Shown here in pieces: positions 1 to 39,387 of a stretch of 64,000 nucleotides of DNA. The notes below the pieces were generated by a model. It was not told the DNA's origin. It saw only the letters and a program-made list of their open reading frames with translations, and ran no database searches. Position 1 is the first letter of the stretch, and the number at the start of each line of letters is the position of its first letter. A program made the position numbers and the translations under genes. The stretch lies in the NCBI GenBank assembly GCA_026709985.1, contig JAPORY010000036.1:1-64000 (forward strand), read 5' to 3'. The DNA comes from Aestuariivita sp. (lineage in GTDB: Bacteria > Pseudomonadota > Alphaproteobacteria > Rhodobacterales > Rhodobacteraceae).

Positions 1-213
1 CTTTACGGAAAGCAGGAAGGGATATGCGCTGGGTGCCGGGTGCTGTTCCCGTTCCGCAACATGACGGTGGATCACATCATTCCGCAGTCGAAAGGTGGAA
101 GCGACCATATCGACAACCTCCAGCTCCTTTGCGCCGCGTGCAACTCCACGAAGGGCACGCGTTCTCAGGAACAATTCATCGCGAAACTTAGCAGAGAGGG
201 AATACGGACATGA
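1..213 (+). CDS. HNH endonuclease C-terminus (5' end outside window)
   Basis: The frame is open from the window edge to a TGA at 211-213. The 70 visible residues make an HNH/McrA-type nuclease: a CxxC pair at residues 9-12 (CAGC), the catalytic block [10 protein letters not shown] at 24-33, an NLQLL strand and a second CxxC (CAAC) at 44-47 followed by NSTKG. Family knowledge: this HNH tail is often fused behind an N6-adenine DNA methylase, so the missing N-terminal part may be a methyltransferase. That is inference, because those residues lie outside the window. The stop overlaps the ATG of the next small ORF by 4 bases (ATGA). No inverted repeat separates this gene from the IS1595-type transposase relic, so it may be cargo of that element. 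Confidence 0.8.
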
Positions 214-410
214 CCCGAGGCGTACCGATGATAGACCCGGACGTTGACCTGAAGGGAGCCACTCCGGAAACCCTGGCCCGCGCCCTCCTGCGCAACAGGA
301 ACCTGCCGCGCCGAGTTGGAAAACCCGTTGCAAGCAACGAGGTCACGGAGCAGGAGGTTGCGGCCAACAAGCCGGGCGACGGTGTCCCACATCTGGTTGA
401 GCGTGTCTGA
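210..410 (+). CDS. small hypothetical ORF coupled to the HNH gene
   Basis: A 66-residue ORF whose ATG overlaps the HNH stop codon, an arrangement typical of translational coupling. I do not recognise a domain. The first half is mildly acidic, then Arg/Leu-rich ([12 protein letters not shown] at about residues 17-28). The second half runs antisense to the 3' end of the IS1595-type transposase, so its sequence is constrained by that gene and may carry no meaning of its own. The start overlap favours a real gene; the antisense half argues against. Confidence 0.35.
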
Positions 411-1222
411 GTCGCTCACGTTATGCTTGCCCGCGAACTCGTTGATATACCGTTGCAGCTGTTTGGGACTCATCTTGTGGAAGGTTCCCTTGTGCGCCCG
501 TTTCAGCATCTACCAGAAAGACTCGATCCCGCTGGTATGCGCCATCCCGTTCACATACTCGCTGACCGAGTGCTTGACCGTCTCATGCGGGTTCGGGATG
601 CCCTCATACGCGGGCGCGTCTCGGTATAGACAACCGCATCATCACCCGCCTTGTCAGCCACGAAGTCTTACAGCGTGATCCTATCAGTCGAGGAAACGAC
701 CTTTGCACTGACCTGATTGGTCTCGCGGTCTTTGACTCCGACAACCGCGGTCATATCCACAGGCCCACGTCCTTCGGCATCCTTGCGTCGTGCATTCGAC
801 TTGTTCTTGCGTTTGCCACCAACATAGGCTTCGTCAAACTCGACAGGGCCATCAAACGGGCCGTCCTGGTCATCACACGCCCACGCCTCGCGGATGCGGT
901 GCATCATGAACCAAGCCGCCTTCTGGCTAATCCCCAACTCCCGATGCAGTTTCATACTGGACACGGATTTGAGGCTCGTCAGGCAGAGATAAATCGCAAT
1001 CGCCCATTTCCGCATCGGGATATTGGACCGCGCCATCAGCGTTCCTGTCCGCACACTGAAATACGAACGGCAATCTGTGCACCAGTAAGGCATCGGTTTG
1101 GCATTCGGAACTTCTTTGGTGTTTGTGCTGCCGCAATGTCCGCAACAGCGTTGACCCTCTGGCCAGATGCAATCTTCAAACCACTCAACCGCCGATTCAT
1201 TCGTCGGAAACATATCCATCAT
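306..1222 (-). pseudogene. IS1595-family (ISXO2-like) transposase, broken
   Basis: DDE-type transposase relic read right to left. The N-terminal part (from 1222) has the zinc-ribbon pairs CGHC and CTDC of the IS1595 family, then the catalytic core start with DEAYVGGKRKNK. The frame is broken at least three times: an in-frame TAA at 668-670, a one-base frameshift near 621-630, and an in-frame TAG at 510-512. Joining the frames restores the usual middle and C-terminus, including HTSGIESFW, then MLKRAHKGTFHKMSPKQLQR. Upstream of 1222 a further in-frame TGA separates a possible earlier ATG (1276). The element cannot make an active transposase. The C-terminal end near 306 is approximate because no clear stop follows. 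Confidence 0.85.
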
Positions 1223-1380
1223 TTCAACAAGTGTGATGCCCTTGCGGTGCGCTTTTCAGAGCGCGGGGTGCGCCATATCGAATCTCCAATTCTTGTTGAT
1301 TCTGATATAAGAACTGGAGGGCGTTTTGTCAAGTATTAGTTATAATCCCCAATAATAGGGTCTTCCAAGCCATGACTGTT

Positions 1381-4300
1381 TTACTGCAAGCTTTCAAGAC
1401 GCGCTAACGCATCACTTAATCGACTCTCCTGCTCCTCGCGTTTTACGAGATTTAACCGCGTTTCGGTGACGACATTTTCTGGGGCAGAGGTGATAAAGTT
1501 CGGGTTATTCAGACGATCACGGGCTTGCTGAAGTTCGTGGCCAAGCTTTTGGAGCGACTTTTGCAGCCGCTGTTTCTCGGCATCAATGTTAATCAGATCA
1601 GCAACATGTAGGCCAAATTCCGCGCCCTCGGCTGCAAGCGTCAAAATACCTTTCGGGAATGAAGTAACCGAAACTAATTCCTCAACCCGCGCTAGGCGCA
1701 TGATCAAAGGTTCATTTTGATCCCAAATGCTTTGGGCACGGGAATCCATCTCTACGGCTAAAATCGGAATGCGGGCGGCGGCAGGAACGGAAACTTGTGC
1801 GCGAGCGGATCGTATGTTCTCAATGAGATTAATGACCCAGTTCATCTCGTGATCAGCCGCTGCTTCCAAAAGGTCATTCGACTTATAGGACGGCCAATTT
1901 GACAGCATCAACAAATTCCGGCGGTTACCAGACAGCCTCCAAAGCTCCTCGGTGACGAACGGCGCGAGCGGATGGAGCAGCGTTAGACATTGGTCAAGCA
2001 CCCACTTCATTGTTGTTCGAGTTTCAGGTCCCGCCTCGTTATCAACATCTTGTAGCAGCGGTTTCGAAAACTCCACATACCAATCGCAAACCGTGCCCCA
2101 AATAAAAGCGTGTAGAATACGCGCCAAATCATCAAATCGGAAATCTTCGAGCGCACTATTAACACGCTCAAGGGTCTTGGCTGTTTCGCCGACAATCCAA
2201 CGATTTAGCGTGTGGTTTGGCGCGGGTAGGGCGGGCGCTTCGGCGTCAAACACCCCGTACATCTCAGCAAAGCGAGCGAAGTTCCAGAGCTTTGTGATAA
2301 AGTTTCGATAACCAGCAAATCGCCCCCGGTCCAACTTCAGCATTCCACCTAGAGAGGCCATCGCTGCTGAGGTTAGCCGCAGGGCGTCGGCCCCAAACTC
2401 ATCAATGACACTCAAGGGGTCAACCACGTTGCCAAGAGATTTGGACATCTTGCGTCCGTTAGCATCGCGTACCAATCCATGAAGATAAACTTGTCGAAAG
2501 GGAACCTCTCCCACAACGGCAAGCTGCATCATAATCATACGAGCGACCCAAAAGAACAATATATCCTGTCCCGTGATCAGAACAGAGGTTGGAAAATATC
2601 GCTGCAGTTCTGGAGTTTGCGCCGGCCAACCTAAGGTTCCAATTGGCCATAACCCAGACGAAAACCAAGTATCGAGAACATCAGGATCGCGGAAAATCGG
2701 CACCGTGTCTCGCTTTCCCTGTGCGAACTCAAGCATCGCCGCTCTGAAGGCGTCCTCATCCGGTACGACAACGACATTGACGCCAAACCTCGCTTGGAAT
2801 TCAGCAACGGCTTCTTGCTCGGACGCATGACAGCAGTGATCGTAAAGGTCATCGCTTGTCGACGGACAGTGCGCGGGATCAATTGAAAAGCGCTGCGGTA
2901 GTGGCGCGTCAGATCCGGCCACCACTTGCGGCCCGTACCAAATCGGAATTTGATGACCCCACCACAGCTGACGAGAAATACACCAGGGCTCAATGTTCTC
3001 AAGCCAATGAAAGTAAGTTTTTTCGCCGCTTTCTGGAACCACTGAAACGGCGCCAGATCGAACAGCGTCGAGCGCAAGGTCAACAATTTTTGCAGTATCG
3101 ACAAACCACTGATCCGTTAGCATCGGTTCAATTACAACCTTGGATCGATCGCCAAACGGCTGCGTAATCGTCTTAGCTTCAATTAGTGGGACAAAACTTT
3201 CAGAGTTATCAGATGCCGCCTTTTGATCCATGGATCCCAACCGTGGGTCAGTTGCGGTTGTCATGACCGCTAAGTTATCGGCAATGATCTGCTGAACAAT
3301 TTGAGTGCGGGCTTCAAAGCGATCTGATCCCCTCAAATCGTCTGGAACTAAATTGAGGCCATCGATTTCTACGTCGTTGAGTTTTCTCTCTTCACGCGCA
3401 ACCTGTTGTGTGATGTTCGCAGCCTCGGCATAAGGTACCCCGTCTGATCGCATTGCGCCGAAGTTATCCATGAGGCGATAACACGGTATTTTGTTTCGCC
3501 GCGCAACTTGATAGTCATTAAAGTCATGGGCACCCGTAATCTTCACGGCACCTGAGCCAAAATTGGGATCGGGATATTCGTCAGTGATGATGGGTATCAA
3601 TCGTCGATACGCTCGCGGGCCAACAGGAATCTCACAGAACTTGCCGACAATGGGGGCGTACCGTTCATCGGTTGGGTGGACCGCAACCGCACCGTCCCCG
3701 AGCATAGTTTCCGGCCGCGTTGTTGCAATCGCAATGTAGTCTCGTTCCTCTTCAAAACAAATCTGACCGTGTTCATCCCTTTCAACATATGAGTAAGTCG
3801 CACCGCCTTCGAGGCGATACTTAAAGTGCCACATATTTCCAGCGATCTCAATATTCTCCACTTCGAGATCCGAGATCGCAGTTGCAAATTTAGGATCCCA
3901 ATTGACCAATCGCTTGCCGCGATAAATTAGGCCTTTCCGATACATCTCGACGAAGACTTTGATTACCGCGTCGTGAAAGTTTCCTTCTTCCCCGGCGGGA
4001 GCGGTCTCCGCACCCGACATGGTAAAGGCTTCGCGCGACCAATCACAGGATGCACCTAGCCGCTTTAACTGTCCGACAATTTGTTCACGAGATTCGATCT
4101 TTTGCTGCCAAACGCGGCGCTCGAAAGCCTTTCGTCCCATCTGGATGCGTGACGGTTCACCATTTTTTTCCATTTCGCGCTCGGTCACCATCTGCGTTGC
4201 GATACCCGCATGGTCGGTCCCAGGTTGCCAGAGGGTATCGAAACCTCGCATACGGTGCCAACGAACAAGAATATCCTGCAGCGTATTATTGAAGGCATGG

Positions 4301-5085: not shown

Positions 5086-7380
5086 ATGGAAAAATTTGGC
5101 AAAGGCCAATCAATAACTCGGATAGAGGACCAGCGGTTCTTAACGGGAAGCGGCAGATATGTTGATGACATTGTGCCTGATAAAAGTTTGTTTGTGAGTT
5201 TTCTTCGCAGCCCCGTCGCGCATGGAAAAATAACCAGTATTGATCTGACGCAAGCACGGCAGATGAACGGTATACATCTGGTTGCAACAGCCAAAGATCT
5301 GGAGGCCGCTGGCGTCAAGCTCAAGATTGACGCCGCGCTAATCAAGAATCGCGACGGCAGTAGCGCCGCAAGTCCAGAGCGGAATATATTGGCAAAAGAC
5401 TATGTGCGATTTGTCGGAGAGCCGATTGCAATGGTTGTATCAGACACAATCGAACTCGGGCGCGACGCCCTTGAGGCAATTGCGCTCGAAATTGATGAAT
5501 TGCCCGCAAATCTGGCTTTCAGTCCGAATAATATCACAATTTACCCCGATATTCGCCAGAACCGAGCGTTTGATTGGGGGCTTGGAGATGAGTTTGCGAC
5601 CGAACAGGCTTTCGCGAACGCTCATCAGGTGGTTTCTCTGCAAGTAGCGAACAATCGAGTTATCGTCAATTCGATGGAGCCACGCACCTGCTATGCAGAA
5701 ATGGACGGCAAGAAGCTCCATTTTTGTTTTTCGAGCCAAGGTGTTTGGGGTTTTAAAAATCGCCTCATTCACGCCTTCGGCCTTGATGCCGATCATGTGC
5801 GAGTGACCACGCCAGATGTCGGCGGGGGGTTCGGGATGAAGGTTATGGTGTATCCGGAATATTATTCCGTCGCGTATGCCGCTCTGGTTTTGCGGCGTCC
5901 CGTGCGCTGGGCCTCGGAACGTTCAGAAGCTATGCTCACGGATAATGGTGGGCGATGCCTAACTTCCTTTGCCGAAATGGCATTTGACGATTCCCATAAA
6001 ATCACGGCCTATCGGGTTAGAACTCAGTGCAATCTGGGCGCCTATAACTCTCAATATGGTCAACCAATTCAGACAGAACTCTTCAGTCGAGTTTTAACAG
6101 GGCCTTACGATATTCAGACCTTCTGGATGCAGGTGGAAGGGTACTACACTAACACCGTGCAAATTGATGCCTACCGCGGGGCTGGTCGACCCGAAGCAAT
6201 CTATGTTCTGGAACGGGTAATGGATCGAGCAGCCCGCGAACTCGAAGTCGATCCGTGGGAATTACGAAAACGCAACTTCATCGCTCGGGACCGATTTCCC
6301 TATAAGTCAGCGACAGGAGAAACATATGATATTGGTGACTTTGATCGCGTCTTGACCCGAGCCGCGACTGAGTTTGATCTCGCGGGCTATGTCGAGCGAA
6401 AGGCAGCGAGTAGCGCCAACGGCCGTTTACGCGGCTACGGTCTGTGCTACTATATTGAATGTATTCTTGGCGAGCCGACAGAGAACGCAAGACTGGTGTT
6501 TGAGGAAGATGGCACACTGTCAGTTTTTGTTGGCACCCAGTCTAATGGGCAGGGTCACGAAACCGTTTATACCCAGTTTATTTCTGATCAGACTGGGATC
6601 TCGCCTTCAGCTATCCGCATTATTCAAGGGGATAGTGATCGAATTACATACGGGGGTGGCACTGGAGGCTCTCGATCCGTTACCTTACAGAGCAACGCCT
6701 TTTTACTTACGATTGAGCAAATCGTGGCAAGCTTTCGAGAATTTTTTGCTCAGAAAATGGATGTTCACGTTGATGAAGTTACATTTGATGACGAGACCTT
6801 TCGGACGAAGACTTCCAACGTTAGTGCGAGCGTTATGCAGGTCGCCGAATGGATCCGCAGTGAGGGCCGTGACGATTTATTGAGCTATGAGGCTCGGTAC
6901 CAAATTGACGGACGAAGTTTTCCCAATGGGGCCCATATTGCCGAGGTTGAAATCGATCCCGAAACAGGATCAACCTCGGTAGATCGCTACATCGTAGTGG
7001 ATGATTTTGGCAATATCATGAATCCATTACTTGTGCAGGGGCAAGTGCACGGGGGCGTGGCGCAAGCCATTGGACAGGCGCTAACAGAGAACACCGTGTA
7101 CGACTCCGATGGACAGTTGCTGTCTGCGACGTTCATGGATTACGCGATGCCCCGCGCCGATCATATGCCGCCCATCAAATTCTTTTCGGAACCCGTACCT
7201 TCAACGGCCAATGCTATGGGGGTAAAGGGCTGCGGTGAAGCGGGAACAGTTGGTGCTCTTGCGGCGGTTGCGAATGCTGTACAAGACGCCTTGTGGGACA
7301 AAGGTATCCGGCAAGCAGATATGCCGTTCACACCGAGCAAAGTTTGGGAGATGTTGGAGTCGGCGAGAAGTGCACCCTAA
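5086..7380 (+). CDS. xanthine dehydrogenase/CoxL-family molybdopterin-binding subunit
   Basis: Large subunit of a molybdenum hydroxylase. The family uses a Mo-cytosine-dinucleotide centre to oxidise CO, purines or aromatic and aldehyde substrates. About 764 residues from the ATG at 5086; the ORF is open from 4984, but family-like sequence starts at MEKFGKGQSITRIEDQRFLTG. It has AYRGAGR near residue 362, the form II (BMSC-like) signature, not the AYxCSFR of true aerobic CO dehydrogenase. The catalytic Glu lies in GCGEAG near residue 716. No small [2Fe-2S] subunit or FAD subunit gene is adjacent, which such enzymes normally need. It must either borrow these from elsewhere in the genome or be an orphan. 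Substrate unknown. Confidence 0.88.
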   Translation: MEKFGKGQSITRIEDQRFLTGSGRYVDDIVPDKSLFVSFLRSPVAHGKITSIDLTQARQMNGIHLVATAKDLEAAGVKLKIDAALIKNRDGSSAASPERNILAKDYVRFVGEPIAMVVSDTIELGRDALEAIALEIDELPANLAFSPNNITIYPDIRQNRAFDWGLGDEFATEQAFANAHQVVSLQVANNRVIVNSMEPRTCYAEMDGKKLHFCFSSQGVWGFKNRLIHAFGLDADHVRVTTPDVGGGFGMKVMVYPEYYSVAYAALVLRRPVRWASERSEAMLTDNGGRCLTSFAEMAFDDSHKITAYRVRTQCNLGAYNSQYGQPIQTELFSRVLTGPYDIQTFWMQVEGYYTNTVQIDAYRGAGRPEAIYVLERVMDRAARELEVDPWELRKRNFIARDRFPYKSATGETYDIGDFDRVLTRAATEFDLAGYVERKAASSANGRLRGYGLCYYIECILGEPTENARLVFEEDGTLSVFVGTQSNGQGHETVYTQFISDQTGISPSAIRIIQGDSDRITYGGGTGGSRSVTLQSNAFLLTIEQIVASFREFFAQKMDVHVDEVTFDDETFRTKTSNVSASVMQVAEWIRSEGRDDLLSYEARYQIDGRSFPNGAHIAEVEIDPETGSTSVDRYIVVDDFGNIMNPLLVQGQVHGGVAQAIGQALTENTVYDSDGQLLSATFMDYAMPRADHMPPIKFFSEPVPSTANAMGVKGCGEAGTVGALAAVANAVQDALWDKGIRQADMPFTPSKVWEMLESARSAP

Positions 7381-7388
7381 CGCAGCAA

Positions 7389-7415
7389 GGCGGAATCGGT
7401 TGGTATTATTCCGCC
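7389..7415. terminator. possible bidirectional hairpin between convergent genes
   Basis: Perfect 8-base arms GGCGGAAT (7389-7396) and ATTCCGCC (7408-7415) with an 11-base loop. They lie 9 bases after the CoxL-like stop and overlap the stop codon of the convergent RND gene. No T-run follows on either strand, so an intrinsic terminator is only a guess. Confidence 0.4.
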
Positions 7416-10400
7416 GGGCTGATTGCTGGCGGTAAGGCGCGTGGTTGAGTGCTCGGTCGTGGCAATATCTTGTTTTCAAGACCGCCGTCCCAGATGATTT
7501 CTGGCACTGATGCTTGGCGCATGGCTTTACGCAAGGCCCAGTCTCGTGCGACGGCGCTGCTACGCGGCATTGAAAGCCAACTAAAGAAGCGGGCAAGAGC
7601 TTCTGCGTAAGTTGCGACCCAAACGCGAAGAGCCAACATAGAGGGCGTAAACACAAGGGTTAGAATCGTTGCCGTTCCTAAACCAAAAACCACCGCCGTT
7701 GCTAGCTGCTTCCACCAAATCGCTGTTGGCGAATCGACGGAATAGCCGCCGTCGATAAAGTCAAGAGAAACACCGAACATCATTGGCGTGAGTCCAGCCA
7801 TGGTGGTGATTGAGGTCATCAAAACCGGTCGAATGCGCACTTCTGCTGTTCGAACAATAGCCTCAATCTTTGGCATGAAGCGCGTGTATTCCTGATAGGT
7901 GTCAATCAAGACGATATTGTTATTGACGACTATTCCAGCCAACGCAACGATGCCAATACCCGTCATGATGACCGAGAAAGGTTGTTGCATAATCAACATG
8001 CCGAGCATTACGCCGGTCGTTGACAACACGATCGCGAGCAACACCAGTGTCGCATTATAGAAGCTGTTGAACTGCGCGAGTAGAATGATAAACATAAGTC
8101 CGAGAGCCCCGGCAAAGGCACTAAACAAAAAGGCCTCACTTTCGGCTTGTCTCTCACGATCACCTCCCCATGCAGTGTCAATACCGTGTGCAAACGGTTG
8201 TGTATCTAACCATTGGTTTAAGGTATTGATTCGCTCAGTCGCATTGACTGGCACGAGTCGAAATGATCCGTCCGCAAGGCCATCAAGGATCGCCTGCTCC
8301 GAAATCCCACTGCTTGACGAGATTAATCGGGCGGGGCTGGTTTCGGTTGGCATCGACTGGTACCCGACGACAGCTTCAGAGCGATTGTCGACTATCTTTT
8401 GGATATCATCAGCGACATTTGCCTTCACCTCAACGTAGCGCCTTTGCTTGAAGCGCTCGATTTTCCCGAGTTTTTTTGTTGGCGTCCGGGTAATGAAGTT
8501 TGACAGCGGCACTTGACCCTCGTTGGTGCGAATCTTTAGGGTATCAAGGGTTGATAGAACGCGATATTCCTCCGCAAGGCGGACTCGGATTTCGATTTCT
8601 TCGTCAGATGAATCGATCCGCATGGTATCAAGAAAGATACCTTTAGTAACCATTTGAACAATGGAGCCTACGGTGGCTACATCGACGCCGAATTGACCAG
8701 CTTTCTCGACATCGACATCAATTCGCCAATCTATCCCCGGCAGAGGAAAGGTATCTTCAATATCAATTAGACCGACGGTATTCTCGAATTTAGTGCGAGC
8801 GATGTGACCAGCAGTCAGCAATTCATCGAAATTATCGCCACGCAACCGAAGATGGAGGGGTTTACCTGAGGGTGGCCCACCAACGACCCCGGCGATTTCG
8901 ATTTTGATTCCGGGAATTCTCGCGAGGTCTCGTTCGAGGCCATTAAGAATTTGAGAACCGTAGTAATTTTCGAGAACGCTCTCGGTTTCGATCAAACCCC
9001 CGAGGAGGGGATATCCTTTTTGACGAGGGCGATCATCCCAAGGCGTGAGTTCGATGCGGAGTTGACCGACGGTATCTTCTGGGGCCTCAACGGTTGGGCT
9101 GTCTTGTTGCAACGCGTTACTTCCCGCAGTTGCGAAGACACTATCAATTCCAGGCGTGTTGAGAACAGTTTGCTCCACTCTGCGGATAATTGCATCTTTT
9201 TCCGTCAAGGAGAGATTGCCGCGGGCTCGAACAAAGATCAGTGCTTCTTCGGGTTCGGTCTCAACAAAAAATTCAACGCCTAAGTTATTTCTGCCGTAGT
9301 AGATGAAGACGCCAACAATGATACTGATGATCGCGACAATTGAGACAATCGGCATTACCGGATTGCCTGCGATCAGTTGCGTGAATTTGCCAAAGAGCGT
9401 GCGACTGCGGCCAATCGTCAGTTCTTTTGGTACGACTGATGACCGCAATGATCCTAGGGTTATCCCTGTTAAGACGGCTCCGAGTAGGAACAAAATGATG
9501 CCGGGCAGATGCCGCAAGGGGCTAGTTGAGTCGGCAAGAGCGCTGCCAAACAAATAGTCGGGAGAGAGAAGCTGCATCGCGCCGAGAAAAACGATATAGA
9601 TCATTATGAGCACAAGCCCAAAACGAGCACTTCGATAGGGCACGATATTCTGCAGGGCGATTGAGAGGCCATCAATGCGGCGATTGAGGCGTCCGGCAAT
9701 TCCGCCAATGACGGGAATATAAATTAGTGCCACAACCAAAGAGGCTGATAGCACGAAGATCATAGTTACGGGCAGTGTGCCCATGAATTCTCCAGTGACA
9801 CCCGGCCAAAATAGCATCGGCAAGAAGGCACATAGCGTTGTTGCCGTAGAACTGACAATTGGCCAGAACATGCGTTTTGCTGCTTCGACATAGGCGTGCA
9901 TCGGCCCTGAGCCTTCGTGGATTCGGCGATCTGCATATTCAACAACGACAACGGCGCCATCGACCAACATCCCAACTGCGAGAATCAATCCGAACAGGAC
10001 CATGTTTGAAATCGAAATGCTCATGACTGCCAAGAAAGCGAAACAAAGCAAAAATGATGTAGGGATCGCAAATCCGACCAGCAAGGAAGCGCGTGGACCG
10101 AGTGCCGCCAAAACGACGATCATGACGAGCGCAATGGCGGTCAACACGGAGCCCTCAAGTTGGTCGATCATTGAGACTATGACCAAACTGCGGTTGGAGG
10201 TGCCGATGGTTATAGCCTGCTGCAAGGGCTCGGGCCACGCTGCGTAAACAGCGGCAGCTTTTTCTCGGGTCAGTCGGGACGTCTCAATGACGCTGTAACC
10301 AGGGCGTTTGAATACATACAGTCCAATCGCGTCAGTACCATTGAAGCGGGCGGTTCCCGTGCGGTCTGTAAAGGTCAATCGGACGTCAGCGAGGTCGCCG

Positions 10401-22636: not shown

Positions 22637-23803
22637 ATGAATGACAACGCGCCGGAGCCTCGGGCAGAAGTTCACTCTGCCAGCGTAACGGCGGCAGGGA
22701 ACAAAACAGCGTCACAAGACAATAAGTCAGTTCCAGACCCACATGCGCCGCCCGTTTTTCTCACGGGTGCTGCCGGTCACGTTGGCGCGAACCTTGTGCG
22801 TCGGCTTCTTGACGATGGGGTCAAGGTTCGAGTCCTATTGCGTGAAGGAGAAAACAACGAGAGTGTTGAAGGCTTAAAAGTCGAAAAAGTATACGGTGAT
22901 CTTCGAAATTTGGACCAAATCCGCAAAGCTATTGCAGGATGCTAGGGAGTGTATCACGTTGCAGCGAAAATCTCAACAATTGAGGGAAATCGCGAGCATC
23001 GCCGCGAAATTTTCGACTCCAATGTGATCGGTACGCGCCACCTGCTTATCGCTGCCCGAGAAGCAGATGCTGGACGAGTTGTGGTGACTGGATCATTCAG
23101 CGCCGTCGGGTATGATCCATCTGACCCGTCTCGCCCAAGCGACGAAACCATGTGTTTTTTTCCAATGGAACCAAGCATGCCGTATGAGCGCAGTAAGTCG
23201 CTCGTCGAGCAAGAATGCTGGCGAGCCGCTGCAGCCTACGGTCAGGAAGTGATGGTCGCGACATGTTGTGCTGTTGTTGGCCCCGCCGATTATTTTCCTT
23301 CTCGCCTTGGGCGAACCATGTGCGATTATGCCAACGGTAAGCTGCGAGCGTATGTCGATGGTGGCTTCGAGTTCGTTGCTGCTCGTGATATCGTCGAAGG
23401 CCATATTCTGTGCATGGAGCGCGGACGCATCGGTGAGAAGTATATTTTTAGCAGTGAGTACAAAACGATTTCAGAAATACTTGATTTGTACGAGGAGGTA
23501 ACAGGTTTGCCCCGACCGAAGCGACGGATTCCGAGCGATGCAATGCTTGCGTTTTCGACAGTAGCTAGTGCTTATCTGAGCCATTTTCATCCCGATTTCC
23601 CGCAACGCTTTACGCCAGGAGCGATTCGGTTACTCAAGAAGTGTCTTCACGCCAATACCAATAAAGCAAAGACGGAATTGGGCTTTAAACCGACGACCAT
23701 CCGCGACGCCATGAATGAAGCCTACGCTTTTCATTACGGCCGAAACTCAATCACTAACTCGCAAGCGAAACCGCCGCGGTTGAAACAGCAGCAGGTGGCG
23801 TAG
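22637..23803 (+). pseudogene. NAD(P)-dependent sugar epimerase/3-beta-HSD-type dehydrogenase with one in-frame TAG
   Basis: Extended SDR of about 388 residues, read in one frame from the ATG at 22637 (AGGAG eight bases upstream) to a TAG at 23801. A TAG at 22943-22945 interrupts it in the strand that normally reads AIAGC-x-GVYHVAA. No frameshift is present and both halves are well conserved. Features: TGAAGHVG cofactor loop, GDLRN, HVAA, catalytic YERSK, then the HpnA/3-beta-HSD-like C-terminus. The family includes HpnA and the dehydrogenases of sterol C-4 demethylation (NSDHL/ERG26/SdmB-like). The neighbouring sterol genes favour a sterol role by inference. A second initiation at 22949 would lack the cofactor site. 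Either a nonsense-inactivated gene or one with amber readthrough. Confidence 0.75.
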
Positions 23804-24557
23804 CAACAGATTGATGGCTTCGCTGGCTAAGGCCATTCCTAACCATTGAACATTAAATTACTCTGGGGATGTGTTTGTTCAGACCTCTGACCTTGAGTTG
23901 TGGATTACAAGACAGGAATGTTGTTTGTTGCTTCTTGCTCGGCAGTGTGCGGAGTGGTGCCCGGGTAAGTTTGCTTGGGACTCAGTTGCGCCCAGAAGCG
24001 CGGAAAACGCAACATCTGACGGCTTTTAGGCATTTAGGTTGATGCGATTGGGCGGTCGGTTGCTTACCAGGATCGCTTGAAATTATCAAAAGGGGTGCTC
24101 AATAGCACATAATCGGCTGCGTCTTCTGTCTAGGTCTTCATATGGCTCACAATCCCGCTGTTATTGTTTCGCAAATGATCAATCGATACTTCTTTCAGTC
24201 AACGAAGGGACCCTGTTCAGATCGGTGAGGCAAAAAACAGTTTGATTTTCCAGATACTGTGATATCCTTCAAATAACGGGTTGAGTGATACTGGTGAAAA
24301 ATATGAGCATGCCTCGCATCGGAGCACATTTATTCGAAATATTAGTTCTAGATCGTCGCAAGATAGCTATACCAATCAACCGCAGTCGAGGATGCGTTAA
24401 AGCCGCAGTTGAACCAAGAAATCTTGTTTTATCATTTGACCGACAACCGCATATATCTCCAGTCCGACGAGCGCGAAGGCGATAAACCAAGCGTTACGCA
24501 GTCAGTTTAGCACTAAAATTGGCCGCTCGTTGCGATCGTCGCAGCGACGTCTGAAGC
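23804..24557. other. gene-free stretch inside the sterol locus
   Basis: About 750 bases separate two genes that look functionally linked. I looked for cytochrome P450 (CYP51) or other sterol-gene remnants and could not identify any motif in the three plus-strand frames. Short frames at 24269-24490 on both strands are Arg-rich shadows. Confidence 0.4.
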
Positions 24558-25664
24558 ATGGGTTATGTTGTGCCTGAAGCCTTATTGCCCTCCATGGCCG
24601 TCACCCCAACAATGCTCCTTGAAGCCACCGCGATCGTCGTTGGCTCTATTGCACCGCTATTTCTGGGCTCAATTTTCTTGCCTGGTAAAGAGCTCACAGG
24701 TCCCGATTTGGAGGGTGAGCAGCGCGTTTACAAAATGAATGGTCTCGCGCTTTTCGTGCTTACCTTACTGATTGTTGGTATCGGACAGGGGTTTGGCTGG
24801 TTCTCTCTATCAGTCTTGCATTCGCACTTTCTGGCGCTGTTTATCGTTATCAACGTCTTAGCCTTCGCTTACTCTGGTTATTTGGTATTCCGTGGCAACC
24901 GACAGGCCCGTCAAGATTTAAGTCTCATTCGCGGTTATTTCTACGGCGTTGACGCTGGCCCCGTTTTGTTTGGGGTCGATACCAAGTTTTTCAGCTACCG
25001 TCCTTCTCTAATTGGACTAGCACTTTTTAATGTCTCCTTTGCGGTCGTTCAGTTTGAAACTACTGGGGAATTAACCCTTTGAATGATGCTGTTCCAAGCT
25101 TTTACGTTCCTGTATCTATTGAATTATTTTCACTTTGAGCACGGAATGATATATACCTGGGACATTATTAGTGAGCATTTTGGTTGGATGTTGGTTTGGG
25201 GAGATTATGTTCTTGTTCCGTTCTTCTACTGTCTTCCCGCTTGGTGGCTTTTGTATGTGCCCCAAACCTTATCGCCTGTCGCCGCCGCCGCCGTTTCTGC
25301 GTTTTTTGTCTTTGGTTTCTGGCTTTTTCGCGGAGCCAACGAACAAAAGCACCGTTTCAAGTAGAACCCAAAGGCGCTTATTTGGGGGCGGCCAGCGCAG
25401 ACCCTAGATGGTCGTCTGTTGATATCGGGATTTTGGGGGATCGGCCGCCATCTAAACTATACGGGTGAGATTTGCATCTACTGCGCTTTTGCCTTAACGA
25501 CGGGGGTTGCCTCTATTGGCCCCTATCTGTTGCCGCTATGGTTGGCCTCGCTGCTCTTTCACCGGTCACTTCGGGATGAACGGCGTTATCGGGAAAAATA
25601 CGGCGAACTTTGGAAGCGCTATTGTCAAAAGGCGCGTTTCGCAATGGTTCCTTTTATTCACTGA
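24558..25664 (+). pseudogene. sterol C14-reductase (ERG4/ERG24 family) with two in-frame stops
   Basis: Three consecutive ORFs in the same frame make one membrane protein of about 368 codons. They are separated by a TGA at 25080-25082 (codon 175) and a TAG at 25362-25364 (codon 269). Joined, they show the ERG4/ERG24 layout: multiple hydrophobic segments, an LPGKELTGPDLEG loop, YTWDIISEHFGWMLVWGDY in the middle, the signature SGFWGIGRHLNYTGE and the C-terminal block HRSLRDERRYREKYGELW followed by YCQKARF. This family reduces the delta-14 (or delta-24/7) double bond of sterols with NADPH. Sequence between the stops is intact and no frameshift is seen, so the stops are recent nonsense changes, sequence errors, or read through. 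The gene ends about 140 bases before the epoxidase-cyclase fusion. Confidence 0.82.
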
Positions 25665-25805
25665 CTGCATGTATTATTCTGTCACCGAGAGATTTCTTAG
25701 CGGCTCAGTGAGGCATGGACATCGTGGATATCTGAACGATTGCCTTTTTTGGGCTCGGTCTATCTTTTCATTGAGAGTTTGCCATGTTCAGCTGGGAGGT
25801 ATTTC

Positions 25806-28800
25806 ATGTTGACCGAACCGAACGCTAGTTTTGACGTTGCGGTTGTTGGCGCTGGGCCGGTTGGTAGCCTTTGTGCTTTGGCTCACGCAAAGCAAGGAGC
25901 GCACGTCGGTCTGATTGAGGCAAATCCCAAGGCTTCTGGACGCCTTGCGGGCGAGTGGTTACACCCACCGGCTGTGAAACTTCTGCGTAAAATGGGGATT
26001 GATCCTGACCGTTTGCCAAACAGTAAAATTGGCTTAGGCTTTGTTGTCTATCCCGAAGATGGCTCCGAACCTATTTTGCTCCCTTATCCAGATGGCTCAC
26101 GGGGGATCGTTTGTGATCATTCGCAACTCGTAGCGTCAATCGGGGAGGCTGTAGACGCTGTCAAAGACATTGAGTTAATCGCACCGGCGCGCGTGAAGGA
26201 TGTTTCAGATAATTGTTTGACTTACGCGATGAAGGGAGAAGAGCGATCACTCTCCGCTTCGCGAATTGTTGGCGCTGATGGCCGCGCCTCAGTAGTGCGG
26301 CAATCTTTGGGTCTATCGACCCGTCCGATGCTTTGCTCGCGGATGCTATCTGTTTCAATCCCAGAGGCCGAACTACCCTTTGACGGTTTCGGTCATGTCT
26401 TTTTGGGTGGCCCCGGTCCCTTGTTTGTATACAGTTTAGAAGACGGCTGTGTACGCATCATTGTTGATGTCCCCGTTGATCGATGGCCGCCAAAAGATAG
26501 GCTGGGATTTCTATCTGAATCGTATGCGGGTTTACTCCCAGATCCGATTGGAACAGCATTTGTCGACTCGCTCCGAGCGGGCAACTTTCATGCCGCTGTT
26601 AACCAACTCCGACCCCGCGTGATCTACGGTAGTTCGCAACGGGTTCTGATCGGAGATGCGGCTGGTCATTACCATCCGATGACGGCAGTGGGCATGACGC
26701 TTGGGTTTGGGGATGCTGTTGAATTGGCGGAAAGCCAAAACTTTAAGGATTATGTGTCGGAACGTCTGCGCGCCGTACGCGTCCCAGAATTTCTAGCTAT
26801 GGGGCTATATGAGGTCTTTGCCGACCATCGCGCTGAAGCCGTGGTTTTGCGTGAGGCAGTCTATCAGGGATGGCGTACCGCTCCCGGATACCGCGAGCTC
26901 ACCACGCGAATACTCGCCTGTGAGGATCGTTCGACGACGGGAATAGCGATAGCTGGCGCCGGTATTGTGGTGCGGGCGATGCGACGGGTTATCCCGACTT
27001 TCTTTCGTGGCTCAGCGGCAAGACAGCGATCGTTCGACGTCTTTCGGGCGCTAATCGTCCGTCTCTGGTGGTTGCAGCGAGGCTTTCTACAACTTCGTCG
27101 GGCGTGTCGTGAGGGGCGGGAGGAAGACCAGCGTGCTCGCCAAAATTTAAGCCGCGCCTTGCTACATTCAATTCCAAATGGCGGTGAGGGACCGCTAACT
27201 GTCCCGCATAAAGATGTTCAATCCCCGGATGCCGAACACGCCCTTCGAAGTGCGACCAAGAAGCTATTGGCATTGCAACGCCCAGACGGTGCCTGGGAAG
27301 GAGAGATGGTGTGGTGCCCGATGCTCACGGCTCAGTATGTTTTGCTGCATCATGTTATTGGACAACCGATGGAGGAGGGCCGTCGGCGACGGGCGTTGAG
27401 ATCATTTGAGCGAACGCAGTTAGAGGGCGGAGTCTGGGGAATGCATGACCACGCACCGCCGAGTTTGTTTGTTACAACCCTTGTTTATATTGCGTCGCGG
27501 AGCCTCGGCATTGCTTCTGACGACCCGATGATTTCCCGTGCTAGAGATTTTATCCGTTCCGAAGACATTTTACGGATTCCGAGTTGGGGAAAATTCTGGT
27601 TGGCTGTTCTCAACTTATATGAGTGGCAGGGCGTCAATGCGATTTTGCCGGAGTTATGGGCCCTACCACGCTGGCTTCCGCTTCATCCTTCCAACTGGTA
27701 TTGTCATACTCGACTGATCTACATGGCAATGTCTTCAATCTACGCAAAACAATTTCAAATCCCAAATAGCCCGCTAGTTGTTTCGCTTCGAGAAGAGTTG
27801 TTCCCGCGCGGGTTCAATCAGGCGGATTTTGTTGGATCTCGTACCCGACTTCGTGAAGGCGACCTTTTTGCAGCCCCATCAATTTGGCTCAAATTCGGCT
27901 ATCGTGTGGCACGATTATTTGAGCGAATTCATCGAGTATCTCTCCGTCAGCGCTGCGAAGAAGCAATTTTGGAACAGATCAAGTGGGAACTACGAACCAC
28001 CAATCATACAAGTATTTCACCAGTCAGTGGCATTCTCAATATTTTGGCACGTTGGTTGCATGACCCCAATGACGAGGACAGTGCCGCCGCCCTCGCCAAG
28101 CTGAACGACTGGATATGGGAGGACGAGGAAGATGGTGCGCGAGTCTGCGGTGCTCGCAGTGCTTCTTGGGATACCGGGTTTGCTCTGCAAGCTCTTGCGA
28201 CCCTTCCGAAGACGATAGAAGTGCGCAAGGCCCTGTCGCGGGGCACTGAATTTCTTATGCAAGAGCGCATTGATCATAGTTTTGAGGGTTTTCGAGAGGC
28301 TTATCGTTCTGACCCAATGGGTGGGTGGTGTTTTGCTGGCGGGTGGCATGGTTGGCCAGTAAGTGATTGTACAGCAGAAGCCGTAGCTGGGTTAATCGCA
28401 GCCAATGGGCGTGATGCTCATCGCCCGGCCTTAGTTGATGCCTTGGGCTTCATACTGCGCAGCCAAAACAGGGACGGCGGTTTTGGCAGTTATGAATCCC
28501 GACGATCAATGTTCGGGCTTGAGTGGTTAAACCCCGCTGAAATGTTTGGCGATTCGATGACGGAACATTCTTTTGTTGAGTGTACAGCGTCATGTCTCGC
28601 GGCGTTGACTGCTTGCCGTGATCAGTTTCCTGAAATTGCAAATGCAGCAGCAGATCGTTCTATTTTGCGGGCAGAAGATTGGCTCCGTCAGACGCAGGAG
28701 AGCGACGGTGCTTGGCGTGGGGTGTGGGGAGTACAGTTCATTTACGGCACCATGTTTGGCATTCGCGGGCTTGTTATGGCGGGTGCTTGTCCCGGAGACT

Positions 28801-29189
28801 CTGCTTTGCGCTCCGCCTGCCGTTGGTTACTTGATCGTCAGCGTCATGATGGCGGCTGGGGTGAACACCATAGCGGCTGCCTTACTGGAAAATATGTTGA
28901 ACATGAGCAGAGCCAAGTGATTCAAACGGCTTGGGCGCTAATGGGGCTGCTGGAAGCTGGGGAGCCCGACTGGGCAGCAATCACACGGGGTGCTAAATTC
29001 CTTCTTGACACTCAGGATTCTGCGGGGGCATGGCCAAAGCAAGATATGGTGGGGGTATTTTTCCGCACGGCACTTCTGGACTATGTTTTGTACCGGCAGT
29101 ATTTCCCGCTTCACGCTTTAGGCCTTTATCAACAGCGCCGACAAAGCCGTATGGAGCTGATTTTGGCTCCAACAGCAGAGGCAGCATAG
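25806..29189 (+). CDS. squalene epoxidase-like / oxidosqualene cyclase fusion protein
   Basis: One uninterrupted 1127-residue frame joins two enzymes. Residues 1 to about 450 form a squalene-epoxidase/UbiH-type FAD monooxygenase: GAGPVG (15-20), GEWLHPPAV as the SQE-like GExLxP block (49-57), GADGR (156-160) and GDAAGHYHPMTAVGMTLGF (283-301). Residues from about 475 to 1110 form a triterpene cyclase with QW repeats (QRPDGAW, QNRDGGF, QESDGAW, QRHDGGW). Its catalytic motif is VSDCTAE (852-858), diagnostic of oxidosqualene cyclases; squalene-hopene cyclases have DxDDTA. HPSNWYCHTRLIYM (627-640) and LNPAEMFGDSMTEHSFVECT (908-927) also match OSCs. Start chosen at 25806 because GGGAGGT lies five bases upstream; the frame is open from 25740. 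The protein should convert squalene to 2,3-oxidosqualene and cyclise it to a lanosterol- or cycloartenol-type product. Confidence 0.92.
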   Translation: MLTEPNASFDVAVVGAGPVGSLCALAHAKQGAHVGLIEANPKASGRLAGEWLHPPAVKLLRKMGIDPDRLPNSKIGLGFVVYPEDGSEPILLPYPDGSRGIVCDHSQLVASIGEAVDAVKDIELIAPARVKDVSDNCLTYAMKGEERSLSASRIVGADGRASVVRQSLGLSTRPMLCSRMLSVSIPEAELPFDGFGHVFLGGPGPLFVYSLEDGCVRIIVDVPVDRWPPKDRLGFLSESYAGLLPDPIGTAFVDSLRAGNFHAAVNQLRPRVIYGSSQRVLIGDAAGHYHPMTAVGMTLGFGDAVELAESQNFKDYVSERLRAVRVPEFLAMGLYEVFADHRAEAVVLREAVYQGWRTAPGYRELTTRILACEDRSTTGIAIAGAGIVVRAMRRVIPTFFRGSAARQRSFDVFRALIVRLWWLQRGFLQLRRACREGREEDQRARQNLSRALLHSIPNGGEGPLTVPHKDVQSPDAEHALRSATKKLLALQRPDGAWEGEMVWCPMLTAQYVLLHHVIGQPMEEGRRRRALRSFERTQLEGGVWGMHDHAPPSLFVTTLVYIASRSLGIASDDPMISRARDFIRSEDILRIPSWGKFWLAVLNLYEWQGVNAILPELWALPRWLPLHPSNWYCHTRLIYMAMSSIYAKQFQIPNSPLVVSLREELFPRGFNQADFVGSRTRLREGDLFAAPSIWLKFGYRVARLFERIHRVSLRQRCEEAILEQIKWELRTTNHTSISPVSGILNILARWLHDPNDEDSAAALAKLNDWIWEDEEDGARVCGARSASWDTGFALQALATLPKTIEVRKALSRGTEFLMQERIDHSFEGFREAYRSDPMGGWCFAGGWHGWPVSDCTAEAVAGLIAANGRDAHRPALVDALGFILRSQNRDGGFGSYESRRSMFGLEWLNPAEMFGDSMTEHSFVECTASCLAALTACRDQFPEIANAAADRSILRAEDWLRQTQESDGAWRGVWGVQFIYGTMFGIRGLVMAGACPGDSALRSACRWLLDRQRHDGGWGEHHSGCLTGKYVEHEQSQVIQTAWALMGLLEAGEPDWAAITRGAKFLLDTQDSAGAWPKQDMVGVFFRTALLDYVLYRQYFPLHALGLYQQRRQSRMELILAPTAEAA

Positions 29190-37905: not shown

Positions 37906-38722
37906 TAGGGCCTGTTGACATCTACTCTCGAACGTTTCTGTATTTCTGTTAAATTTACTCTCAGAGTTGTGCGGAAAAGAGGCGACGTACACGATTAAGA
38001 GAGCAGAATCATGAAAAGAGATCGAACCGTTTTGACGGATGACATTTGGGAGCGGATTGAACCGCTTTTGTCGGGAAAGGCAACGGACCCCGGACGGACG
38101 GCGGATAATCGGTTGTTTCTTGAAGCCGTGTTGTGGCGCTTCCGCACGAGATCGCCATGGCGGGATCTTCCCGCGTATTTTGGTAACGGGAAACGTGTCT
38201 TCCGACGATTTTGATCTGTCGGTCGTATCGGTCGACGGCACGATCATGCAAGCCCATGCCAAGGCTTCGGGATCCGAAAAAGGGGCTCCTGCGAAGGTAT
38301 CGGACGCTCGAAAGGCGGTCTGACGAGCAAGATCGTCGCGCTGACCGATGCCATCGGGAAGTTGATCCGTTTTGTCGTCCTCCCCGGCCAGAGGCACGAT
38401 CTGGTGGCGATGCCCGACCTTCTTCAGGACATTGCCGTGGTAACATTGATCGGCGACAAGGCCTTTGACTCGGACGCCTTAATGGATACACTCGCCAAAC
38501 GCGGAGCGGCGGCGGTGATGCCGCCGAAGAAAAACCGAACGCTTCCGCGCAGCTTTGACCGAGACACCTATCGGGAACGGCACCGAATTGAGAATTTCTT
38601 CTGTAAAATCAAGGAGTTCCGGGCGATTGCGACCCGGTACGACAAGACCGCGTCCAGCTTCGCGGCGGGAATTCATCTGGTTGCGGGGGGTATCGCTGCA
38701 CGATAGATGTCAACGGGCCCTA
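37906..38722 (+). mobile_element. IS5-family (IS427-like) element, internally deleted
   Basis: Bounded by imperfect 17-19-base terminal inverted repeats: left at 37906-37924 (GGGCCTGTTGACATCTA) and right at 38704-38722 (same sequence with one change, inverted). The outermost TA pair could be either repeat or a 2-base target duplication. The 817-base length and broken transposase show it is inactive. It is inserted 8 bases after the secF stop, in a small palindrome (CCTAATC...GATTAGG, 37893-37909) that may have been the secF terminator. Confidence 0.85.
38011..38706 (+). pseudogene. IS5-family transposase, frameshifted and deleted
   Basis: The first 66 codons ([33 protein letters not shown]) match the N-terminal domain of IS427-type transposases. 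After RVFRR a segment of roughly 60-90 bases is missing and the frame changes to [19 protein letters not shown] (DDE first Asp in VDGT). A second frameshift near 38290-38300 leads to GRSKGGLTSKI, the second Asp in IGDKAFDSD and the C-terminal YRERHRIENFF with the catalytic Glu. The frame ends at the right inverted repeat. Not functional. Confidence 0.9.
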
Positions 38723-39387
38723 GTTGCTGAGGCAGGAGAAGACTGCTCTAGTTGCTGTTAAAACCTCGGCAAAACCACCCGTCTGCAGTTTTTTAACGCA
38801 GCATCCAATAGGTTGGTATATATCCTAGTCTTGGTCACCCGTAATCGAAATGCAGCGTCGTCAGATGTTTGGCGTTGAATCCGATATAGTAGGATCGTCA
38901 CGTCTGCACTAGAGGTTCCTTTGCTCGTGAGCCAGAAGTGGTGTGATTGGATTGAGCGCGGGTCAAACCTTGTATGTGTGAGATACTAAATAGGGATCCT
39001 GTTACGACTTTCGACCATGTTTTGATGTCGACAGCATCTTCTCTTTCGTCTTGCAAGCGATCGGTTACGATGATCGGGGCTTAGCGTTAATGATACCTTC
39101 TGAAGAAGTGGTTTAAGCCACCGGTTTGAGGCAAAAATAGCCGGTCGATATGTCCGAATGCCGACAAGAGGAGCGTGCGGAAGACGAAGTTGTTCGCAAT
39201 TCTTTTCGTGGCGAATGGAATTATGCGTTGCTTCCGTAGTGCCTCAAATGTAGCGTTTGTTATTAAATCAGCCCTTAGCTGCAGAAACGATCACATTTTC
39301 AACATAAGGTATCTTATGATACCCGTCTTTCTAACTGCGATCAGCTTCCTCGGTCAGACTCTTCATTCAATGCAATCGCATTTTGGT
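38723..39387. other. gene-free stretch between IS5 relic and restriction enzyme gene
   Basis: About 660 bases downstream of the type IIG gene on the other strand. A 95-codon plus-strand frame (39175-39462) overlaps the 3' end of the restriction gene and looks like a shadow. No att-like repeat or RNA gene found. Confidence 0.4.

Follow-up and report, generated by a model that had tools for sequence, protein, structure and literature searches.

A reduced sterol cluster of the sponge-symbiont type with an intact squalene epoxidase-oxidosqualene cyclase fusion in Aestuariivita

Introduction

The msb locus (msbA-F) of a gammaproteobacterial symbiont of the sponge Melophlus holds the same kinds of gene as the intact relatives of the locus described here, and the product of its msbE likewise unites squalene epoxidase and sterol cyclase in one protein and has the valine typical of lanosterol formation (PMC7074536). 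Among Ircinia symbionts, an ERG24-CYP51-LSS operon is reported in 115 of 537 genomes (PMC9531527). In the Ircinia steroid gene clusters (CSGs; PMC9531527) and the SMT-bearing clusters (PMC10070321), the ERG24-CYP51-LSS operon is spread across sponge symbionts from about ten phyla and shows low omega values (0.13-0.26). A much shorter pathway serves Gemmata obscuriglobus, which has the epoxidase and the cyclase only and depends on their products, lanosterol and parkeol (PMC6606645); the two-step pathway is therefore a workable end state. Which organism makes which sterols in a sponge matters for how fossil steranes are interpreted and for understanding why some bacteria have sterols in the first place.

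The window analysed here is a stretch of 64,000 nucleotides (bases 1-64000 of contig 28) from the genome of an uncultured Aestuariivita, 3.5 Mb in size, 98%-complete and in 121 contigs. The plus strand of the locus carries, in 5' to 3' order, an SDR gene, an ERG4/ERG24 reductase gene and a fusion of squalene epoxidase with oxidosqualene cyclase (SE-OSC). A first-pass annotation of the same DNA had described stop codons in the first two genes and had offered two explanations for them: either selection now keeps only the cyclase product, or the interrupted genes are expressed by localised readthrough.

Results

The locus was compared with the best 80 of 193 fusion-encoding loci in the genome collection. 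Most of these 80 have a set of five genes in the identical order: sdmB, sdmA (Rieske), C14 reductase, CYP51 and the SE-OSC fusion. In a congener (G001; JAPORU010000011, labelled Aestuariivita sp., Rhodobacterales) all five cluster genes are intact at the corresponding site (L023/L037), and a der-bamB-yfgM flank is common to the two genomes. Beside this flank, the gene order of the window is that of the intact clusters minus two genes. The window locus is a remnant of the known bacterial sterol cluster (msbA-E / sdmB-sdmA-C14 reductase-CYP51-SE/OSC). The functional tailoring set (SdmB, SdmA, C14 reductase, CYP51) is missing from it, two of the genes being absent and two carrying internal stops, and for this reason it is classed here with degraded loci and is not counted among the functional clusters. 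Sponges are named in several record titles of the related loci, and the relatives appear to live mostly in sponges.

A further genome of the genus has no sterol cluster after yfgM (L148, G002:C55, 5091-8192): genes for an acyl-CoA dehydrogenase and an enoyl-CoA hydratase lie there instead, together with one that, judged by its sequence alone, resembles a hydroxyisobutyrate dehydrogenase gene. Downstream in the window, positions 38160-38725 share 80-89% DNA identity with both ends of the G001 contig that holds the sterol cluster, and probably belong to a repeat or mobile element that caused the break in the assembly at the ends of that contig.

The two missing genes are both oxygenases. In place of the Rieske oxygenase gene sdmA/msbB of relatives, the plus strand of the window has 754 nt (23804..24557) in which no Rieske remnant was found by similarity. 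In place of CYP51 (msbD, about 1.4 kb) there is a junction of only 141 nt (25665..25805, plus strand), with no CYP51/P450 similarity left. One of about 300 queries gave a possible Rieske remnant in this junction (E 7e-4), but its place does not fit the gene order, and the match was treated as chance. A search of the whole 98%-complete genome gave no orthologue of sdmA or CYP51 and no second ERG24, the matches being distant paralogues only. The Rieske gene of G001 has SdmA as its best NCBIfam match, and the SDR gene of G001 has SdmB, each with a score under the curated cut-off. The substrate of SdmB is the product of SdmA, and the substrate of the C14 reductase is the product of CYP51, so the stop-bearing genes are the partners of the lost oxygenases.

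The first of these partners, an sdmB/msbA-like gene for an NAD(P)-dependent SDR (22637..23803, plus strand, 389 codons), has an Epimerase/3Beta_HSD Pfam match and is probably a pseudogene: codon 103 is an in-frame TAG (22943..22945), where relatives have Q (27) or R (18). The second, an msbC-like gene for an ERG4/ERG24-type sterol C-14 reductase (24558..25664, plus strand, 369 codons), is a probable pseudogene with two internal stops, a TGA at codon 175 (25080..25082), where relatives have A, Q, G or S, and a TAG at codon 269 (25362..25364), where they have mostly R (40) or Q (14). A genome-wide search returned this ERG4/ERG24 gene as the sole one. Identity to the intact counterparts in G001 is 73% for the SDR and 68% for the reductase. 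Both halves of the SDR, and likewise the three pieces of the reductase, match one Pfam family consecutively in a single frame, and they are therefore interrupted genes and not separate ones. No frameshift was found in either gene (756 codons), and each of the three stops falls at a position that is variable in the alignment of homologues; invariant sites are not hit. Translation and Pfam matches bear out the first-pass description of three in-frame nonsense codons, without indels, in two tailoring genes beside a stop-free fusion, which is open throughout 25806-29189. Stops at positions 14-19 of the SDR in several relatives were rejected as marks of pseudogenes; the N-terminus is variable there, and they are taken to precede the true start. 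Single stop codons also occur in the reductase genes L114 and L132 of other symbiont genomes.

Internal stops were surveyed by homology in about a fifth of the genome (743 kb sampled, against 719 kb sampled from G001; 84 aligned genes, 30,531 codons). A coding-potential scan for interrupted genes was set aside, because the codon usage bias is too weak and the known stops were missed. Besides the SDR and the reductase, the sole full-length gene with an internal stop in the survey encodes an AAA protein that is shortened at its C-terminus. This AAA ATPase-like gene (L163, about 6183-7493, on contig 28 of G000) is ∼15 residues shorter than its homologue in the congener, the stop replacing a Q. 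The other matches with stops came from the ends of alignments, from an integrase-like locus or from matches in the wrong frame. The chance of three stops all falling in 756 of the 30,531 codons is ∼1.5e-5; set against the fusion alone, the clustering is marginal (P = 0.054 for all three stops in the two genes).

The fusion gene (25806..29189, plus strand) is intact and msbE-like, and PF08491, PF13249 and PF13243 all match within its single open reading frame of 1127 codons. It scores above the cut-off of TIGR01787, and reaches 728.8 bits with TIGR03463, under the cut-off of 851. The squalene epoxidase part matches PF08491 (E 4.8e-18) and 6c6n, a solved squalene monooxygenase (E 2.8e-19). The cyclase domain aligns along its length with human lanosterol synthase (1w6k; E = 8e-135), and keeps the catalytic Asp-Cys of DCTAE and the cysteine of ECT. 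The valine of its WPVSDCTAEA motif aligns with human V453, and valine at this position goes with lanosterol in tested bacteria (PMC4919349). The enzyme is predicted to yield an unmodified C30 4,4,14-trimethyl sterol, with lanosterol as the most likely one. Histidine, the residue of cycloartenol synthases, aligns with human 449, which leaves room for a mixture or for an isomer such as parkeol. The genome has a squalene synthase-like gene (L125). Direct reading of the sequence shows a Shine-Dalgarno-like GGGAGG (25794..25799, plus strand), separated by 6 nt from the start codon (ATG) of the fusion. A promoter search upstream of the fusion gave no sigma-70-like site on the plus strand, the matches being no more than in shuffles.

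Conserved residues were compared in the three genes. None of 162 fusion sites invariant in 80 other sequences is changed, the lowest rank of 81, while the SDR has changed at 3 of 105 invariant sites, the second highest of 57, and the reductase at 1 of 84. At strictly invariant sites the excess in the SDR and reductase over the fusion is small (4/189 against 0/162, P = 0.13); at 97%-conserved sites the figures are 9/243 and 2/300 (P = 0.015). Terminal branches in this lineage and in the congener, respectively, measure 0.41 and 0.35 for the SDR, 0.31 and 0.25 for the reductase, and 0.26 and 0.28 for the fusion: a mild acceleration of protein evolution limited to the SDR and the reductase. Synonymous sites are saturated between the window genome and the congener, so that dN/dS on this lineage is uninformative. 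When stops and damaging changes are fitted jointly, the data agree with ∼0.04 (0.02-0.08) neutral substitutions per codon after the loss, which points to recent decay.

Comparable reductions are found in other lineages. C-terminal stubs of CYP51 lie directly upstream of intact fusions at L077, L086 and L099/L102, and more weakly at L049, so that no fewer than three further lineages keep only the end of CYP51 next to a complete fusion. Symbiont-type ERG24 is absent from the genomes of L077, L086, L099/L102 and L049. In pairs drawn from lineages whose locus is missing tailoring genes, partly or entirely, omega of the fusion is 0.15 and 0.18 (L084/L086), 0.12 and 0.15 (L083/L094), 0.15 and 0.17 (L049/L054), 0.10 (L102), and 0.33 for L099, whose branch is very short. 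With omega mostly 0.10-0.18, purifying selection on the fusion continues in these tailoring-reduced lineages. Elsewhere the fusion itself decays, with a stop at query residue 651 in L062 and at 1012 in L103, so that its retention is not universal. The fusion served as query in collecting the loci, and cases where it went first are hidden by this choice. Among 395 genomes of the family, drawn regardless of the cluster, fusion and reductase occur in the same 5 and no reductase was found without a fusion; in a class-wide sample, five other reductase-bearing genomes all have the fusion too.

Some loci hold further variants. L049, L050 and L054 were rejected as plain cyclase-only loci, since the fusion of each is accompanied by another kind of P450-bearing gene, about 670 residues long. 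L050 (13541-15553 and 16033-18360) encodes a GPP34 (Golgi phosphoprotein 3-like)+P450 protein of 670 residues and an MMPL transporter with sterol-sensing-domain similarity, and genes like these also lie next to the fusions of L049 and L054. These genes adjoin SE-OSC fusions that are without the usual tailoring genes, and are possibly a second sterol module. The genome that holds the intact standalone fusion of L049 also has a truncated second fusion copy with a CYP51 remnant upstream (L155; G061, 50-1770, minus strand).

Discussion

The favoured reading, given a probability of about 0.77, is that the window holds a sterol cluster in the middle of reduction to the first two chemical steps: sdmA and CYP51 have been lost, sdmB and the C14 reductase are decaying, and the product of the fusion is retained by selection. 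With SdmA and CYP51 lost, SdmB and the C14 reductase would have had no substrate; constraint on their genes would have lapsed, allowing the nonsense substitutions to accumulate recently. The fusion would still be translated from its own ribosome-binding site. Its protein would epoxidise and cyclise squalene, giving a C30 4,4,14-trimethyl sterol that is most probably lanosterol, and it is presumably this product that selection retains. That the SDR and the reductase decayed while the fusion did not is explained most simply by the loss of the two partner oxygenases. On the preferred reading, the three stops mark a recent conversion to pseudogenes that followed the loss of substrate, an order of events that we infer. 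The loss of the partner oxygenases, and the recurrent loss of CYP51 with the fusion kept in other lineages, are new here. Of the two alternatives in the first-pass annotation, selection for the cyclase product alone gains support from the conserved fusion in the window, from the repeated loss of CYP51 beside intact fusions and from the low omega of those fusions; localised readthrough gains none.

An intact fusion could be a matter of time here, since the fusion decays in other lineages. In its full form this counterpoint holds that the entire cluster is unneeded and that the fusion has merely not yet been struck, which would sit well with the stops in the fusions of L062 and L103, the truncated copy of L155 and the congener G002, without any cluster; the probability of 0.054 for three stops missing the fusion is also not negligible. 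Decay of the whole pathway is nonetheless unlikely, given a fusion with no change at its invariant sites, a terminal branch slightly shorter than that of the intact congener, and omega mostly 0.1-0.2 in lineages with a CYP51 stub only. Within this genome, the evidence that selection keeps the fusion lies in its conservation, its retained catalytic residues and its good ribosome-binding site.

It is very improbable that localised readthrough, or reassigned stops, keeps SdmB and the reductase working. Two genes free of indels, with most conserved residues kept, no stop at an invariant site, and both TAG codons where many relatives have Q, would suit such decoding. Against it, TAG ends 65 and TGA 123 of the 266 long open reading frames in the sampled genome, most of them in all, and comparable stops are absent from about 80 other aligned genes. 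The stops are not followed by a known readthrough context (TAG-GGA, TGA-ATG, TAG-AAC), the two proteins evolve slightly faster and have changed at invariant sites, and the enzymes that made their substrates, SdmA and CYP51, are gone. Sequencing or assembly errors, conceivable in a 121-contig draft, are a scarcely credible source of the stops and gaps: stop-type errors would be genome-wide whereas the sampled genes are hit only here, and two genes missing within one contig together with three stops in their partners are not error-like.

A wider proposal is tentative. Sponge-associated bacteria of several phyla may independently have cut a complete sterol pathway to the SE-OSC fusion, the useful product being the untrimmed C30 sterol and not a demethylated one, either as a membrane lipid of their own or as a precursor for the sponge or for demethylase-bearing neighbours. 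One genus with a complete, a decayed and no cluster forms a natural series, which together with the parallel loss of CYP51 in other phyla allows a direct test of whether these bacteria need demethylation or can do with a lanosterol-like C30 sterol. Nor does the presence of a cyclase gene, or of a gene annotated as ERG24, in a draft assembly prove that the sterol pathway is complete.

The locus is a reduced form of the known sponge-symbiont sterol cluster, and the reduction is real and recent. Compared with the msb locus, the window is without equivalents of msbB and msbD, its equivalents of msbA and msbC bear stops, and no msbF-like methyltransferase was seen beside its fusion. Of the SdmA/SdmB pair for C-4 demethylation, which the Rieske and SDR proteins of G001 resemble best, the window keeps a broken SdmB-like gene only. 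The CSGs and the SMT-bearing clusters are described as operons under purifying selection, and the portions of those reports drawn on here do not mention reduction to an SE-OSC fusion (PMC9531527, PMC10070321). A functional analogue of the state proposed for the window is the minimal pathway of Gemmata obscuriglobus, with squalene epoxidation and cyclisation only (PMC6606645, PMC4919349), although sqmo and osc are separate genes there, in an unrelated lineage in which sterols have been shown to be essential.
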